DNA of 49,938 nt from an uncultured Lachnospiraceae bacterium (GTDB lineage Bacteria; Bacillota; Clostridia; Lachnospirales; Lachnospiraceae). Every line of letters starts with the position of its first letter. Positions within the stretch are counted from its first letter, which is position 1. The position numbers and the translations under genes are program-made. Shown here piece by piece: positions 9,907 through 36,525 of the stretch. The notes under the pieces are model-generated. The model did no database searches and was not told the origin of the DNA. It worked only from the letters and a program-made list of their open reading frames with translations. The stretch is from positions 1-49,938 of the forward strand of contig ONEJ01000064.1 of NCBI GenBank assembly GCA_900316805.1. Direction: 5' to 3'.

Positions 9907-10305
9907 ATGTTTGACAGGGGAAGAACCATATACCATGTAGAGAATGTGATTCGAGAGATTGGGGATCAGGTAGATGATGGATTACATAGGATTTTTGTGA
10001 ATACAGTATGTAATGACGGATCAGAAATTGCGGATTTGATGTCTTGTTTTACCCAGAAACAGGTGAATAATCCTAAGTTCCCTGTGTTTACACGAAGAAT
10101 GAATGAGCTAAAGAATGAAGAAGGAGGTCTCAATATCATGTGTGAAGTAATGCAGAAGTACGAGCAGATAGCAGCTGAGGATGCCGCAAAGAAGGTAAGA
10201 ATTGAGGCAATCCAGAATATGATCGAGCTTGGGCTTTCGGAAGAGAAGATTTTAACAAAGTATACAAAAGAAGAATATGAAGAAGCACAAAGAGGAAATT
10301 GTTGA
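9907..10305 (+). pseudogene. C-terminal remnant of an Rpn / PD-(D/E)XK transposase-family nuclease
   Basis: The readable part (about 132 codons, frame open from 9880) resembles the C-terminal half of Rpn-like recombination-promoting nucleases (PDDEXK_2 family): the strand 'R.IYHVENVI.E.G....DGLHRIFVN', then a helical tail with AAEDAAKKVR and GLSEEKILTKYTKEEY. The N-terminal nuclease core with its catalytic D and E-x-K is missing; an in-frame TAG at 9877 closes the frame and nothing similar lies upstream. Near 10280 the sequence also continues plausibly in another frame for about 20 codons (EEIVELLDKIATAKGQK, stop 10345), which suggests a frameshift at the end as well. It lies directly downstream of a tRNA gene and ends in its own terminator. 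Confidence 0.65.
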
Positions 10306-15397: not shown

Positions 15398-15405
15398 GTA
15401 TTTCA

Positions 15406-15470
15406 AACTTCCCACATGGATTTTCCAGCGGCATACGCCTGCTACCGGAAAATCCATGTGGGAAGTTTTT
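15406..15470 (+). terminator. Strong long-stem terminator
   Basis: A 21-bp uninterrupted stem (AACTTCCCACATGGATTTTCC and its complement, ending 15467) has a 20-base loop, followed by TTT. Confidence 0.88.
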
Positions 15471-15570
15471 GTTTGTAAATTTATCTTTGCTGTGGACCTT
15501 TACATTACCTGACTGGGCAGTAGGAGTAATATTTCTACTATGCGCCCACAATTTTCAATTTTTGTATTAG

Positions 15571-15978
15571 TACCAGGCTGATGAAGAGGAAAACACAGAC
15601 GAAGGAACAGATTTAAGTGGAACCGTAACACTGGCAGGAAGTACATCCATGGAGAAGCTGGCCAACGCAATTGCAGAGGCATTTATGGCTAAGTACCCGA
15701 ATGTTCAGGTGACACATGAGTTTACCGGATCCAGTGCAGGACTTGAGTCTCTGGCAGCCGGAAGCGTAGATATCGGAGATGCTTCCCGTGCTCTGACAGA
15801 TGACGAGAAGGCAACCGGAGCTGTGGAGAATATCGTAGCAATTGATGGAATTGCAATGATTACCGACACAGAAAACACTGTAACAGATCTTAAGTCCGAG
15901 GATCTTGCAAAGATTTACAAGGGAGAGATCACAGGAACTGGATTCCACAGGAACTGTTCTTGCAAAGGTTGCAGATAA
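15571..15978 (+). pseudogene. pstS: Truncated phosphate-binding protein gene, 5' and 3' lost
   Basis: The frame codes for about 120 residues of PstS, the extracellular phosphate-binding lipoprotein: LAGSTSMEKL, HEFTGSSAGLESLAAGSVDIGDASRAL in pieces, and VAIDGIAMITD. Upstream there is an in-frame TAG at 15568 and no start codon, signal peptide or lipobox. After KGEIT the sequence stops matching PstS, enters a few unrelated codons and ends at TAA 15976. The second lobe of the protein (about 150 residues) is missing. Downstream sequence is already pstC in another frame. The product could be neither exported nor bind phosphate. Confidence 0.85.
15931..15956 (+). repeat. 10-bp direct repeat at the pstS/pstC junction
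   Basis: ACAGGAACTG occurs at 15931-15940 and again at 15947-15956, split by GATTCC. PstS similarity ends in the first copy and PstC similarity begins after the second, so the repeat marks a deletion or rejoining point. Confidence 0.75.
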
Positions 15979-16579
15979 GAGACTGGCAGCCATCGTGCAG
16001 CCGGCAGTAGAACTTCTGGCGGCAATTCCGTCTGTTATCTATGGTCTTTTGGGCGTTATGATCTTAAATCCACTGATGTACCGCCTGGAAAAATTTGTTT
16101 TTGCAGGAAGCGAAACCCATCAGTTTACCGGAGGCTCCAATCTTCTTTCTGCAATTATTGTGCTGGCGATCATGATTCTTCCCACAGTGATTAATATCAG
16201 TGTGTCTGCCATCCGCGCGGTACCGGCACATTTGAAATCAGCGTCTCTGGCTGTGGGGGCTACCCACATGCAGACGATTTTCAAGGTGATTATTCCTGCC
16301 GCCCGTTCCGGTATCATGACAGGCGTGGTGCTGGGAATCGGTCGTGCACTGGGAGAGGCAATGGCTATTAATATGGTAGCCGGAGGTGCGGTGAACATTC
16401 CGCTTCCATTTAATTCTGTTCGGTTTTTGACCACACAGATCGTCAGCGAGATGGCGTATGCATCCGGCGTTCACCGCCAGGTACTGTTTACGGTGGGATT
16501 GGTTCTGTTCCTTTTTATCATGATCATTAACCTGATTCTTGCACAGCTGGAAAAGAAAGGAGCGCTGGAAAATGACTAG
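15947..16579 (+). pseudogene. pstC: Phosphate ABC permease gene lacking its 5' part
   Basis: About 210 codons of PstC permease remain: AKVADKRLAAI, PAVELLAAIPSVIYGLLG, the EAA-type loop VPAHLKSASLAVGATHMQTI...GIGRALGEAMA, and the last membrane helix. The first 100 or so residues, with at least two membrane helices and the start codon, are gone. The frame differs from the pstS remnant, so no fusion protein results. The 3' end is normal and overlaps the pstA start by eight bases (ATGACTAG), the usual coupling of these genes. Confidence 0.85.
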
Positions 16580-17438
16580 TATCAATACGAAGAAACGACA
16601 TCCGGCGGATGTGCTTTTGTATATCGCAATATACATCTGTGCTGCATTTTCCGTGGCTTTGCTGCTGGGAATCATCCTTTATGTTCTGATTAAGGGTATA
16701 CGTAGTGTAAGCTGGGATTTTTTGACCGGCGTGACCTCAGTGCTGAAGGGCACCACCGGAATTGCCGGAAATATCGTCAATACCTTGTATATTATTGTGG
16801 TTACAATGCTGATTGCAACCCCCGTGGGAGTGGGTGCGGCTGTGTACCTCAATGAGTATGCTAAACCGGGAAAGCTGGTGTCTGTTATTGAGTTTGCAAC
16901 GGAGACGCTGGCAGGCATCCCGTCTATTATTTTCGGTTTGTTCGGTATGATGTTTTTTGGAGAAACTCTTCACCTGAGCTACTCTCTGCTGACAGGATCC
17001 TTTACCATGGTACTGATGGTGCTTCCGCTGATCACCAGAAATACCCAGGAGGCATTAAAAACCGTGCCGGATTCCTACCGTCAGGGAGCCATTGGACTGG
17101 GAGCAGGAAAATGGCACATGATCCGCACCATCTTACTTCCTTCTGCCATGCCGGGAATTATTACCGGTGTCACTCTGGCAATCGGAAGAATTGTGGGTGA
17201 ATCGGCAGCATTACTTTTTACCGCCGGAAGTACGGGACTGTTGCCTCACAGCTTTACAGAGCTTTTGAAGAAGGCAACACAATCGGGAGGAACCCTCACC
17301 ATTCAGTTGTACTTAAGTGCGACAAAGGGTGAGTTTGGTGTGGCATTTGGTATTGCCCTGGTACTGCTGGTCATTGTTCTGGGAATCAATTTCCTGACCA
17401 AGGCCCTGGCGAAGCGTTTTGACGTCAACAGACGATAG
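16572..17438 (+). CDS. pstA: Phosphate ABC transporter permease PstA
   Basis: The 288-residue protein has six membrane helices and seems complete: N-terminal helix at 16-40, [28 protein letters not shown] in pieces, [13 protein letters not shown], and the ATPase-contact loop [39 protein letters not shown] at about 16555-16561 sets the start. In the cell it should pair with PstC and two PstB subunits. Here the genes for all partners are broken, so this permease is stranded unless intact copies exist elsewhere in the genome. Its reading frame has no lesion, which suggests the neighbouring losses are recent or artefactual. Confidence 0.92.
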
Positions 17439-17449
17439 AGGAGAAAACA

Positions 17450-17794
17450 ATGGAGAAAAAGACTAAAATTTCGGTTCGTAATCTGAATCTGTATTACGGA
17501 CAGAATCACGCTTTAAAGGATGTCAGCATGGATATCCGGGAAAAGTGTGTGACAGCATTTATCGGCCCCTCCGGCTGCGGAAAATCGACATTTCTTCGAA
17601 CCTTAAACCGCATGAATGATCTGGTGGAGAATGTAAGGATCACCGGTGAGGTGAAGCTGGATAATGAAGATATTTATGGGGAAAACGTGGATACCACAGT
17701 TCTTCGGAAGAAAATCGGCGACCATGCCACCAACATTGCCGAATGGGTGATTTTTGCCCTGGATGACAAGAAGGTAACCGCTGGGGAAAAGTAA
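17450..17794 (+). pseudogene. pstB: In-frame pstB'-phoU' deletion fusion
   Basis: Codons 1-89 are the start of PstB, the phosphate-importer ATPase, with Walker [10 protein letters not shown] (39-47) and [10 protein letters not shown]. At residues 89-91 (17714-17722) the text switches to the C-terminal end of Pho[15 protein letters not shown], and ends normally. The Q loop, ABC signature and Walker B of PstB, and about 190 residues of PhoU, are gone. The junction shares I-G with both parents (PstB RKKIG-MVFQ; PhoU RIGDHATN), fitting deletion at a short homology. The 114-residue product cannot hydrolyse ATP. AGAGGAG precedes the ATG. Confidence 0.87.
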
Positions 17795-17805
17795 TCTCGA
17801 ATAGT

Positions 17806-17910: not shown

Positions 17911-19701
17911 ATGGATCTATTTGGAATTCTTACAATGATTGGCGGCCTTGCCATGTTTTTGTACGGAATGAATGCAATGGGGGACGGGCTTGCAAAGCTT
18001 TCCGGGGGAAAACTCGAGCAGATACTTGAGAAACTGACCTCGAAGCGGATCATGGCCGTCCTGCTTGGCGTGGCGGTGACTGCGGTCATCCAGTCTTCCT
18101 CTGCCACCACGGTCATGGTGGTAGGCTTTGTCAATTCGGGAATTATGAAGCTTAATCAGGCGGTTGGTATCATCATGGGAGCCAACGTGGGAACCACTGT
18201 GACCTCCTGGATACTGTCCCTTGCAGGAATTCAGGGAACGAATTTGTTTTTACAGCTCTTAAAGCCCTCGTCCTTTGCACCGGTGATGGCAGCGATTGGT
18301 ATTATTCTGACCATGACCGCCAAGGGCAATCACAAGAAAAAGGATATCGGGGATATTCTGGTGGGCTTTGCCATTCTGATGTTTGGAATGGAAACCATGA
18401 GCTCAGCCGTGGAACCCCTTGCGGAAAATGAGGCGTTTACTGGAATTCTGACCATGTTTTCCAACCCTATTCTTGGCATGATTGCCGGTATGATCTTAAC
18501 GGCGGTGATCCAGAGCTCTTCGGCATCTGTGGGTATTCTGCAGGCCCTCTGTGTGACTGGGGCGGTGGGCTACAAGACGGCGATTCCCATCATCATGGGA
18601 CAGAACATCGGTACCTGCGTGACCGCACTTTTGTCTTCTGTGGGAGCCAGCCGCAATGCGAAGCGGGCCTCCATGATCCATCTGTACTTTAATATGATCG
18701 GAACTTTCCTGTTTATGGCGGTATTTTACGGAATCAATGCTCTGGTGGGAGGCTTCGCCTTTTTAAATGAGCCGGCCAATGCCGCGGGCATCGCTGTGGT
18801 TCACAGCTTATTTAATATTGGAACGCTTCTTGTGCTTTATCCCTTCGGAAACAAGCTGGTACAGCTGGCAGAGCTTACCGTCCCTGAACATGAGGAGGAG
18901 AAGGATAAGGAGCCGGACGAATTTGCAAGATTGGATGAACGATTCCTGGAGAAACCGGCCTTTGCCATGGAGCTTTGCAGAGAGGCAGCTGTCCGGATGG
19001 CAGAGGAAGCAAAAGCGTCCCTTACACTTGCATTGGAGAACTTAAAATCGTATAGTGAAGATAAGGTGGAACAAATCATTCACATGGAGCAGAATGTGGA
19101 TCACTATGAGGATGTGCTGGGAACCTATCTGGTTAAGCTCAACAACTGTGACCTTTCCCAGAATGACAGTAGGGATCTGTCCATCCTTCTGCACTGTATC
19201 AGCAATTTTGAGCGGATCAGTGACCATGCTGTCAACATTACGGATTCTGCCCGCCAGATGAGGGAAAACAATATGACTTTCTCCGGGAAGGCTACGGAGG
19301 AAATTTCCATATTTTCCGAGGCTTTGTCTGATATTGTGGCGCAGACCATGGGGGCTTTTGAGGGAAATGACTTAGATGCTGCCAGAAGGATCGAGCCCTT
19401 TGAGCAGGTGGTGGACCAGCTGAGCATCGAGCTAAAGCAGCGGCACATAAAGAGGCTTCGCAAAGGGAAATGTACCATTGAGCTGGGGCTGATCTTAGAG
19501 GATATCATTACGAATTTTGAGCGGATCTCCGACCACTGCTCCAACATTGCCGTCTGTATGATCAGGGTGAACGAGGATGGCTTCGACACCCACGAATATC
19601 TGGATATCATTAAGGAAGAGAAGGCTCCGTGGTTTGAGCAGGAATATTATGCGCTTTCCAAACGCTACGAACTGCCCGGTAAAAAGAAAAAAACGTCTTA
19701 A
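17911..19701 (+). CDS. Na+/phosphate cotransporter with PhoU-like tail (NptA/YjbB type)
   Basis: This 596-residue membrane protein should import or exchange phosphate with sodium. Two inverted Na/Pi repeats carry the family QSSS motif: QSSSATTVMVVGF (about 56-68) and QSSSASVGILQ (about 199-209). About eight membrane helices end near residue 330. A cytoplasmic PhoU-like helical domain follows (about 355-560), with two E..D-type repeats around NFERISDHAVNI and NFERISDHCSNI. It is intact, with an AAGGAG site before the ATG. A Pho-box cluster sits upstream and phoB-phoR follow, so it is probably induced when phosphate is low and may replace the broken Pst importer next door. Confidence 0.92.
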   Translation: MDLFGILTMIGGLAMFLYGMNAMGDGLAKLSGGKLEQILEKLTSKRIMAVLLGVAVTAVIQSSSATTVMVVGFVNSGIMKLNQAVGIIMGANVGTTVTSWILSLAGIQGTNLFLQLLKPSSFAPVMAAIGIILTMTAKGNHKKKDIGDILVGFAILMFGMETMSSAVEPLAENEAFTGILTMFSNPILGMIAGMILTAVIQSSSASVGILQALCVTGAVGYKTAIPIIMGQNIGTCVTALLSSVGASRNAKRASMIHLYFNMIGTFLFMAVFYGINALVGGFAFLNEPANAAGIAVVHSLFNIGTLLVLYPFGNKLVQLAELTVPEHEEEKDKEPDEFARLDERFLEKPAFAMELCREAAVRMAEEAKASLTLALENLKSYSEDKVEQIIHMEQNVDHYEDVLGTYLVKLNNCDLSQNDSRDLSILLHCISNFERISDHAVNITDSARQMRENNMTFSGKATEEISIFSEALSDIVAQTMGAFEGNDLDAARRIEPFEQVVDQLSIELKQRHIKRLRKGKCTIELGLILEDIITNFERISDHCSNIAVCMIRVNEDGFDTHEYLDIIKEEKAPWFEQEYYALSKRYELPGKKKKTS

Positions 19702-19718
19702 GTATCGAGAGGAATATT

Positions 19719-20387
19719 ATGGCACTGATTTATATCGTAGAAGATGATGAAAATATTAGAGAAATCGAGACCATTGCGCTGAAGAACAGTAATTACATGG
19801 TCTGCGCCTTCGAAAAGGCTAAGGACTTTTACAAAAAGCTGGAGGATATCATGCCAGATCTGGTGCTCCTTGATGTGATGCTTCCGGATGAGAGCGGCTA
19901 TGATATTGTGCGAAAGCTTCGGAAGAATTCTACCACAAAGAGGCTTCCGGTCATTATGGTCACCGCCAAAACCGCCGAGATGGATATGATCAAGGGGCTG
20001 GATGACGGGGCAGATGACTACATTAAAAAGCCATTCTCTATCATGGAACTGATCACAAGGGTCAAGGCGCTGCTGCGCCGGACAGAGACAGAGGATGTCA
20101 AGCATCTCCAGCTGGACAACATCGTTTTAGATCATGAACGGCACATGGTGTATGTGGACAATGACCCGGTGGAATTGACCTTCAAGGAGTATGAACTTCT
20201 CCGGCTTCTGATGACGAACCAGAATGTGGTGCTCTCCCGTGAGGTGATCATGCGCCATGTCTGGGGCACGGAATTCGAGGGGGAATCCAGAACCGTGGAT
20301 ATGCACATTAAGACATTACGCCAGAAGCTGGGAGAGGCGGGAAGCAAGATCCGAACTGTCCGAAACGTTGGGTATGTGATTGAGTGA
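19719..20387 (+). CDS. phoB: Phosphate response regulator, OmpR family
   Basis: The 222-residue regulator has a receiver domain (1-118) with Asp52 in VLLDVMLPDE, TAKT and Lys in YIKKPF, and a winged-helix domain (about 128-220) with VELTFKEYELL and the recognition end RTVDMHIKTLRQKL. The assignment to PhoB/PhoP rests on position: after the pst remnants and the Pho-box-controlled transporter, before the PhoR-like kinase. It begins 17 bases past the transporter stop behind AGAGGAAT, so it is in the same transcript. It is complete. Confidence 0.85.
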   Translation: MALIYIVEDDENIREIETIALKNSNYMVCAFEKAKDFYKKLEDIMPDLVLLDVMLPDESGYDIVRKLRKNSTTKRLPVIMVTAKTAEMDMIKGLDDGADDYIKKPFSIMELITRVKALLRRTETEDVKHLQLDNIVLDHERHMVYVDNDPVELTFKEYELLRLLMTNQNVVLSREVIMRHVWGTEFEGESRTVDMHIKTLRQKLGEAGSKIRTVRNVGYVIE

Positions 20388-20468: not shown

Positions 20469-21704
20469 ATGAAGCAGAAAATTAATAAATGCCTGTTTAT
20501 GACAGCAATGCTGGGAGTCATTGCAACCTTATTCAGCATGACTTTTATTTTCTATACACTTTTTCAGCGCCAGGTAAAGAAGGATCTGCAGGTGAATGCA
20601 GAGATCCTTGCAGCTTCCGGTGTTTTCAGAAAAGATGTCTCCGGTGAAAATTTGGACAGAGGTTATAATATCAATGGGAAAGAACTGCGTGTGACCTGGA
20701 TCGATACGGATGGCAGAGTACTCTATGACAATGATGCCCGGGCAGATGAGCTGGCCAATCACGGGGACAGACCTGAGGTACAGGAGGCATTAACGAATGG
20801 AACCGGCGAATGTGTCAGAAAATCTGACACAATGAAAATGGACACTTTTTACTATGCCCTTCGTCTTTCAAATGGAACAGTGCTTCGTGTCTCCACAGAG
20901 GCCAGGAGTATTTTGAATATGTTTCTGACGGTGGTGCCGATCATTCTTCTGATTCTGGTGCTGATCATCGGGTTCTCTGTCGTGTTAGCTCATTTTCTTA
21001 CAAGGCAGCTGCTTTCGCCCATTAAAGTGATGGCAGCGAAGGTGCGGCAGGATTTTACCGCCAATGTTTCCCATGAGTTAAAGACACCCCTGACGGCCAT
21101 TTCCGGTTATGCGGAACTCATCGAAAACCATATGGTGGATCCGGGACAGGAGACCCGTTTTGCCCAGGAAATTCAGCAGAATGCCAATCGGCTTCTCTCT
21201 CTGATCAACGATATTATCCGGCTCTCTGAGCTGGACAGCAAGGAGGGGGAAGCTCTTTCCTCTGAAAACATCGATCTGGATGAGGTGGCACGTGAGTGTG
21301 TGAAGGGGCTTCAGGTGAATGCCCAGAAGCAGAAAATTGCCCTTGTTTATGACGGTAAGCCCTGCCAGATCCTGGCAAACCGGGATATGATGCAGGAGCT
21401 CATTGACAACCTGGGACAGAATGCCATCCGTTATAACAATGAGGGCGGCTATGTAAACATCCGGGTGCTGAAGGAGGATGGACGGCCGGAACTTCTGGTG
21501 GAGGACAATGGCATTGGCATTCCCAAGGATCAGCAGGAGCGGGTGTTTGAACGGTTTTATCGGGTGGACAAGAGCCGATCCAAGCAGACAGGCGGTACAG
21601 GGCTTGGTCTTGCTATCGTTAAGCACATCGTGGCACTGCATGATGCGGAGATCCAATTGGAGAGTGAACCCGGGAAGGGCACTACAATTCGGGTGCTGTT
21701 TTAG
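20469..21704 (+). CDS. phoR: PhoR-like sensor kinase with a near-absent linker
   Basis: The 411-residue kinase has two membrane helices (about 10-31 and 152-175), an extracellular sensor of about 115 residues with VTWIDTDGRVLYDN and the motif NHGDRPE, and a complete kinase core: His202 in VSHELKTPLTA, N box NLGQNAIRYN, DNGIGIP, FERFYRVDKSRS and GGTGLGLAI. Between TRQLLSPI at the membrane exit and VRQDFTANVSHEL only about six residues remain, where relatives carry about 40 more (the signal-transmitting linker and start of the dimer helix). The loss is in frame. It could lock the kinase in one state. The ATG follows AAGAGGAGAAG; the gap to phoB is 81 bases. Confidence 0.85.
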   Translation: MKQKINKCLFMTAMLGVIATLFSMTFIFYTLFQRQVKKDLQVNAEILAASGVFRKDVSGENLDRGYNINGKELRVTWIDTDGRVLYDNDARADELANHGDRPEVQEALTNGTGECVRKSDTMKMDTFYYALRLSNGTVLRVSTEARSILNMFLTVVPIILLILVLIIGFSVVLAHFLTRQLLSPIKVMAAKVRQDFTANVSHELKTPLTAISGYAELIENHMVDPGQETRFAQEIQQNANRLLSLINDIIRLSELDSKEGEALSSENIDLDEVARECVKGLQVNAQKQKIALVYDGKPCQILANRDMMQELIDNLGQNAIRYNNEGGYVNIRVLKEDGRPELLVEDNGIGIPKDQQERVFERFYRVDKSRSKQTGGTGLGLAIVKHIVALHDAEIQLESEPGKGTTIRVLF

Positions 21705-35955: not shown

Positions 35956-36504
35956 TTATTTTTCTTCTGCTTTCTCAGCGACACTCCCGTCATTATCCAC
36001 AACCTTGATAATTCCCTTTTTCCACATAATGCGGGAAGAGATGATAGCAACCGGAAGCATGAACAGGATCAGAAATCCGATCATACCGAATAAGGAACCG
36101 CCGCTGGTGATTCTTACGAAAAGTGCTAATACAGCCACACAGGAGATGGCTTCGCCCTCAGGCGTGTTGGCTTCTTTCTTGGCCAGCTTCATGGCATTGA
36201 CCGCTACCGGAAGCTTCAGATTCATGATGTTACCGGTGATAAAGGTCAGGTAGGTGGAAGAACCGAGGATTGGTGTGTAGCTTAAGGCCTCGGAAATACC
36301 TACCGGAATATAGATCATCAGGATACTGATAGTGGACAGATTGATGACATCCCCGAAGGACGGTATGCAGTGATAATATGCCAGTACGATAAAGGGCAGA
36401 GCCACCATATAGGCTAACATGATTACGGTTCCCAGGCGGCTCCACTTGTGGCACCATGCCTGAAAGGGATCCATGACAGTTGTCTGTTTTGTCTTTTTAC
36501 TCAT
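35956..36504 (-). CDS. Membrane protein, partner of DUF5058
   Basis: I do not know this 182-residue protein by name. It has four or five membrane helices (about 24-44, 50-75, 80-95, 118-132, 137-160), a conserved-looking loop YTPILGSSTYLTFITGN and NLKLPVA, and a charged C-terminus. It follows the DUF5058 gene by 21 bases with its own AAGGAG, which fixes the ATG at 36504 (a TTG six codons earlier lies inside that site). A two-part membrane complex, perhaps a transporter, is inferred from this pairing. Confidence 0.72.
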   Translation of the reverse strand: MSKKTKQTTVMDPFQAWCHKWSRLGTVIMLAYMVALPFIVLAYYHCIPSFGDVINLSTISILMIYIPVGISEALSYTPILGSSTYLTFITGNIMNLKLPVAVNAMKLAKKEANTPEGEAISCVAVLALFVRITSGGSLFGMIGFLILFMLPVAIISSRIMWKKGIIKVVDNDGSVAEKAEEK

Positions 36505-36525
36505 CGAAAATTCTCCTTTCAAAAA

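Follow-up and report, generated by a model that had tools for sequence, protein, structure and literature searches.

Does the broken pstSCAB-phoU locus described here record the loss of a phosphate importer from a bacterial lineage, or is it a product of how the genome was sampled and assembled? The stretch of DNA analysed (49,938 nt, hereafter the window) is contig C95 of a Lachnospiraceae-like assembly of 2.25 Mb in 103 contigs, which is 82.3% complete. Missing stretches were defined against the nearest relative in the comparison, G018, which is ~81% identical to the window at the DNA level and is another species' genome rather than a conspecific one; its pst locus, L041, corresponds to CAMFDG010000003.1, a public record from the MAG of an uncultured Lachnospiraceae bacterium, taken as G018 contig C3. 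The answer that we favour, and consider probable, is that the lineage really and recently lost PstSCAB-PhoU when RecA-independent slippage at short direct repeats deleted several stretches.

Aligned to G018, the window is broken all through pst-phoR: five stretches are absent within about 5.5 kb, and all joins are colinear, with gene order and orientation preserved. Missing are the pstS promoter together with the first ~54 codons, 124 bp within pstS, 587 bp from pstS into pstC and, further 3', 1,073 bp from pstB into phoU as well as 96 bp of phoR in frame, while pstA, the Na/Pi symporter gene and phoP are unbroken. The initial annotation had placed the damage within 15571-16579; it extends to the 5' end of pstS, to pstB/phoU (17714-17718) and to phoR (21028-21036). 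Apart from the intergenic stretch upstream of pstS, all genes and joins of the pst-phoR region given below lie on the forward strand.

Where relatives have the pst promoter and the 5' end of pstS, the window carries an intergenic stretch with a long hairpin (15398-15575). The promoter, the start and the first ~54 codons of pstS are gone before position 15576, and the DNA upstream does not align to G018. The hairpin itself (15405-15468) is strong and REP-like, and its arms recur on other contigs, several times near contig ends. A mobile element at the 5' end of pstS was considered and rejected; the stretch holds the REP-like hairpin, and the ORF list shows no transposase gene at this place. A search of a phage collection with window positions 15400-17800 gave no near match. 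By eye, parts of a two-component system precede pstS in G018 (L041:4472-5777); the window has none at this place.

The first remnant of pstS spans residues ~54-172 (15576-15932; PF12849 and G018 alignment). It has neither start codon nor signal peptide and its similarity to PF12849 (15595-15933) covers model positions 2-121 of 267, as the initial annotation had it when describing a PstS similarity that ends after ~120 residues. The N-terminal truncation of PstC is likewise borne out: the pstC remnant (15957-16579, residues 94-303) is an open frame that matches TIGR02138 at positions 90-294 of 296, with the first ~90 residues absent, and at 207.1 bits still lies above the family cut-off of 196.45. 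What connects the two genes is not the single out-of-frame junction originally proposed, since two joins occur between 15930 and 15972. At join A (15930-15942), 124 bp of pstS are absent and the frame is broken within pstS, whereas at join B (15957-15972) 587 bp are absent and the passage from pstS to pstC is in frame, the protein text reading GTVLAKVA (pstS) and then DKRLAAI (pstC). Between them is a short island of pstS, 20-40 bp in length (ELDSTGTVLAKVA, 15933-15972), which like both joins was located by G018 alignment; positions 15930-15972 are 88% identical to G018 pstS, starting 112 bp beyond the end of the left piece.

The 10-bp repeat that was thought to flank this junction, ACAGGAACTG, is indeed present at 15931 and 15947, but its copies do not flank the pstS-pstC join. 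The first copy (15931-15940) lies at join A and the second (15947-15956) within the pstS island. Because G018 pstS has ACAGGAACTGGATTCCACAGGTGCGG at the same place, the second copy belongs to pstS itself, and the repeat therefore does not bracket the passage to pstC, which occurs at 15957-15972 over sequence similar in pstS and pstC. A deletion between direct repeats is expected to leave one copy. A single deletion at ACAGGAACTG was rejected on these grounds: the later copy is part of the native gene, and the change to pstC comes further 3'. As to the two causes suggested at the outset, deletion through short repeats is the best-supported class and an assembly fault its main rival; the deletion proposal fails in that the repeat named is not at the pstS-pstC join and in that at least five stretches, rather than one, are gone.

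Downstream, pstA is complete (16572-17438; 92% identity to L041), and pstB is reduced to residues 1-90 (17450-17718; TIGR00972 positions 2-85 of 248), in which Walker A is kept and the signature motif is gone, as read from the sequence. Join C (17714-17718; 1,073 bp absent, 5 bp overlap, G018 alignment) removes the C-terminal part of pstB and the N-terminal part of phoU, and fuses the first 90 pstB codons in frame to the last ~26 codons of phoU (17714-17794), recognised by a 19-residue stretch as in the phoU of L041. Of a working PstSCAB-PhoU system, the window therefore holds neither a complete exported PstS nor a stand-alone PhoU; PstA is whole and PstC is present only from residue 94, and PstB, limited to residues 1-90, does not combine Walker A, signature and Walker B.

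Beyond this fusion follow an intact NptA-type Na/Pi symporter gene with C-terminal PhoU domains (17911-19701; PF02690, PF01895, NF037997), an intact phoP response regulator gene (19719-20387) and phoR (20469-21704), whose 411-aa histidine kinase product is 32 residues short between the membrane part and HisKA. At join D (21028-21036), 96 bp are absent in frame, with a 9 bp overlap. We call the shortened segment a linker because Pfam names no HAMP domain in PhoR, even in that of G018. It measures 34 residues in the window as compared with 66-74 in 30 of 30 selected PhoR sequences, G018 among them (drawn from 80 loci; selection required a recognisable kinase box and, relative to the G018 protein, an identity of at least 40% and E < 1e-60).

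At 80 loci of relatives collected by PstA similarity, pstS was found at 72 (counted at 75% of its length or more), and pstC, pstB and phoU at 77, 73 and 71, respectively (each at 90% or more); pstS was cut by a contig or locus edge at 8 of the 80, pstC at 3, pstB at 5 and phoU at 7. A partial pstS, pstC, pstB or phoU away from an edge was seen in none of the 80. At two loci, L042 and L052, pstB and phoU were not within 4 kb of pstA, and L042 has a full pstB further off. In Roseburia faecis (L042) and in G016 (C1:2830829-2839647), pstB lies several kb from pstA and the operon seems to be split by other DNA; at L052, PstA similarity ends at residue 279 of 288, with no pstB or phoU in the ~2.3 kb of sequence present after it. 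Within the genus, PstC reaches the family cut-off in 20 of 23 genomes and falls below it in G009 (83% complete), G015 (94% complete) and G023. Absence of Pst from a member of the genus is not unheard of. A parallel decay in G023 was considered and dismissed, its PstA piece being merely cut by a contig end.

The initial annotation had also raised the possibility of an intact pst operon elsewhere in the genome. None was found in the 82.3%-complete assembly, nor did this assembly yield a stand-alone PhoU, a PitA or a PstB above cut-off. PhoU domains are confined to two intact Na/Pi symporters, the one described above on C95 (17911-19701) and another on C9. PitA is also absent from G018, G005 and G010. 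At this level of completeness an intact copy could be missing, which speaks against a real loss.

The completeness and the metagenome-like character of the assembly, with its 103 contigs, also favour the main rival, namely that pst is intact in the species and the joins were made by local misassembly or chimeric template molecules. We consider this artefact rather unlikely, and the evidence that bears on it is of several kinds. It would suit the finding of five lesions within 5.5 kb of otherwise pristine code, and the short pstS island enclosed by two joins would be an odd product of stepwise decay. Short repeats are also where chimeric amplification molecules join. The preservation of order and orientation at the joins, however, is not what such an artefact would favour, and the structure of the assembly argues against a misjoin in the graph. 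Exactly 87 bp are common to five pairs of contig ends (64 ends compared, two unreadable), and every N in the 1.03 Mb of sequence compiled sits in contigs that are N throughout, with no N gaps within contigs. Shared contig ends of word length are a trace of de Bruijn assembly, in which earlier words are of 21 or more. We infer a graph word of ~87, and a graph misjoin would therefore need far longer shared sequence than the 4-16 bp by which the joins overlap. Overlaps of this size should be too short for such a graph to fuse contigs, and the joins were probably in the reads and presumably also in the DNA of the cells.

How do these overlaps compare with chance? BLAST overlaps at joins A to D are 13 (gapped), 16 (with mismatches), 5 and 9 bp, of which the first is, in our judgement, ~4 exact bases once conserved codons are considered, 13 being the gapped reading. 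In 200 simulated blunt deletions, used as the chance model, the median overlap was 0 and 6% reached 5 bp. The mean of the four observed overlaps has a probability of 0.0004 with join A taken as 13, 0.002 with join A taken as 4, and 0.009 with join A as 4 and join B as 9. The overlaps thus exceed chance, as judged against the ~81%-identical G018 and with join A gapped.

Over 425,039 aligned bases, compared against 1.20 Mb of G018, tight deletions numbered 22 rows on the side of the window's genome (two rows being one place) versus 18 on the G018 side, so that the assembly is not generally gapped; neither general erosion nor general misassembly is supported by these counts. Deletions with overlapping ends, both in long reading frames, numbered 8 on this side versus 4 on the G018 side. 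Half of the 8 lie between pstS and phoR, in 5.4 kb, where the rest would predict 0.05 (P = 3e-7, a post hoc value, the locus having been picked by the earlier finding). The remaining ~420 kb hold only 4 comparable genic joins, which argues against a genome-wide load of chimeras. One of them is a whole-gene loss (C79), kept among the 8 and rendering the clustering figure conservative, and two others are in contig C95 itself, at 9908 and 36138. The first of these two belongs to a remnant of a PD-(D/E)XK transposase (9907-10305; PF12784 in G018) that lacks its 5' part and carries a 113 bp deletion, and the second to a membrane-type protein gene (35956-36522) from which an in-frame stretch of 228 bp is gone, the join overlapping by 10 bp; the G018 protein is of 304 aa and has no Pfam match at E 0.001. 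A gene for an FAD-dependent oxidoreductase (L178:2474-3721) has a 329 bp deletion with a 4 bp overlap and altered ends.

If the deletions are real, they are young. Relative to G018, dN/dS of the pstS, pstC, pstA and pstB pieces is 0.01-0.07, like that of intact neighbours, and amino-acid changes unique to the window number 1, 4, 5 and 1, respectively, as compared with 5, 5, 6 and 0 unique to G018 (11 versus 16 in total). The pst remnants contain no stop, no frameshift besides those at the joins and no excess of amino-acid change. An old pseudogene is therefore rejected, on account of the dN/dS values and the lack of acceleration; the contrary exception is the 5' part of phoR, with 8 window-unique versus 3 G018-unique changes (the 3' part has 3 versus 5). 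This very freshness sits uneasily with a stepwise loss, in which four or five large deletions must precede any visible point lesion and the later ones bring no obvious gain after the first. Pristine remnants would be accounted for by a mixture of strains, in which a part of the population carries the deletion allele, the assembler took the shorter path and other cells keep pst, but no contig with the missing parts is present in this bin, and we regard such a mixture as improbable. The probabilities that we attach to the alternatives overlap with that of the preferred reading and need not sum to one.

Under the preferred reading, real and recent loss, several slippage deletions at short direct repeats would have removed Pst-PhoU. 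Phosphate import would then be left to the two intact Na/Pi symporters, and PhoR, short of 32 linker residues in frame, may have adjusted to the absence of Pst and PhoU. How many events there were, and in what order, is inferred, and relaxed or adaptive selection may have acted on the locus, for example under phosphate-rich conditions. The locus would then capture the recent loss of a widely conserved importer while its joins can still be read, and would suggest that Na/Pi symporters suffice in the niche of this organism; if the joins are an artefact, metabolic predictions made from this assembly (no Pst, no PhoU) would be wrong.

The event is of a known kind and its interest modest. Pst-type importers are given for 767 of 926 genomes in the available part of one study (PMC13170248), and lacking Pst is therefore not extraordinary. 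A limited literature search found no account of pst decay in Lachnospiraceae. For fish-adapted Streptococcus agalactiae, the accessible portion of another report (PMC3637634) puts 136 of 193 indels >4 nt at repeats (median 8 nt), with small indels coming first and large deletions later. The window resembles those pseudogenes in its few-base repeat deletions in seemingly unneeded genes; unlike the genome-wide decay that this portion describes, with small indels first, the lesions here are clustered in phosphate genes and include no small indel.

Changes in PhoR have accompanied the loss of PhoU elsewhere. In Escherichia coli, according to the part of a study available to us (PMC4423584), phoU loss brings compensatory mutations in pstSCAB, phoR and phoB, and the window is like such suppressed phoU/pst mutants in that PhoU and Pst are lost alongside a change in PhoR. 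Those mutants are laboratory-derived, whereas the change in the window is an in-frame linker loss of putative effect. In Staphylococcus aureus, the PhoU domain of NptA helps control PhoPR, as stated in the available part of the corresponding report (PMC13170248), and a symporter with a C-terminal PhoU domain beside phoPR could similarly report phosphate to PhoR in the window's lineage once Pst-PhoU is gone. S. aureus differs from this lineage in having retained pst and in possessing PitA-PitR as well. According to the same part of the report, cells that had lost every one of the three PhoU homologs showed no overt defect in rich medium, and neither phoPR nor the importers acquired mutations, a result that weakens the idea of an adjusted PhoR.

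On C77, next to ppk, lies a third Na/Pi symporter gene from which ~147 bp and 1.1 kb are missing relative to G018, at joins with no clear repeat; it was found by searching for phosphate genes and is hence not an unbiased hit. It is conceivable, though quite improbable, that the lineage is taking apart its high-affinity uptake and its sensing of phosphate at two places together (pst-phoU-phoR and the C77 symporter), with a shortened-linker PhoR that would answer, in place of Pst-PhoU, to the PhoU domain carried by the remaining Na/Pi symporter. The same gene bears on a variant of the preferred reading, in which a replication fork or repair tract jumped forward repeatedly along the operon in one complex event and left islands between deletions, all in one orientation. 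In its favour, every join is a colinear deletion with a short overlap, all of them lie within 5.5 kb, with a 20-40 bp island, and no point decay is seen between them. Against it, the pstB-phoU and phoR joins are 3.3 kb apart with intact genes between them, and damage has also struck a phosphate gene outside this contig; we regard a single event as very unlikely. At the C77 locus (L039:7437-8132), a shortened Na/Pi symporter of 178 aa has as neighbours an intact ppk and a PstS-like piece of 47 residues; in G018, where the PstS piece has no match, the C77-type symporter is full-length.
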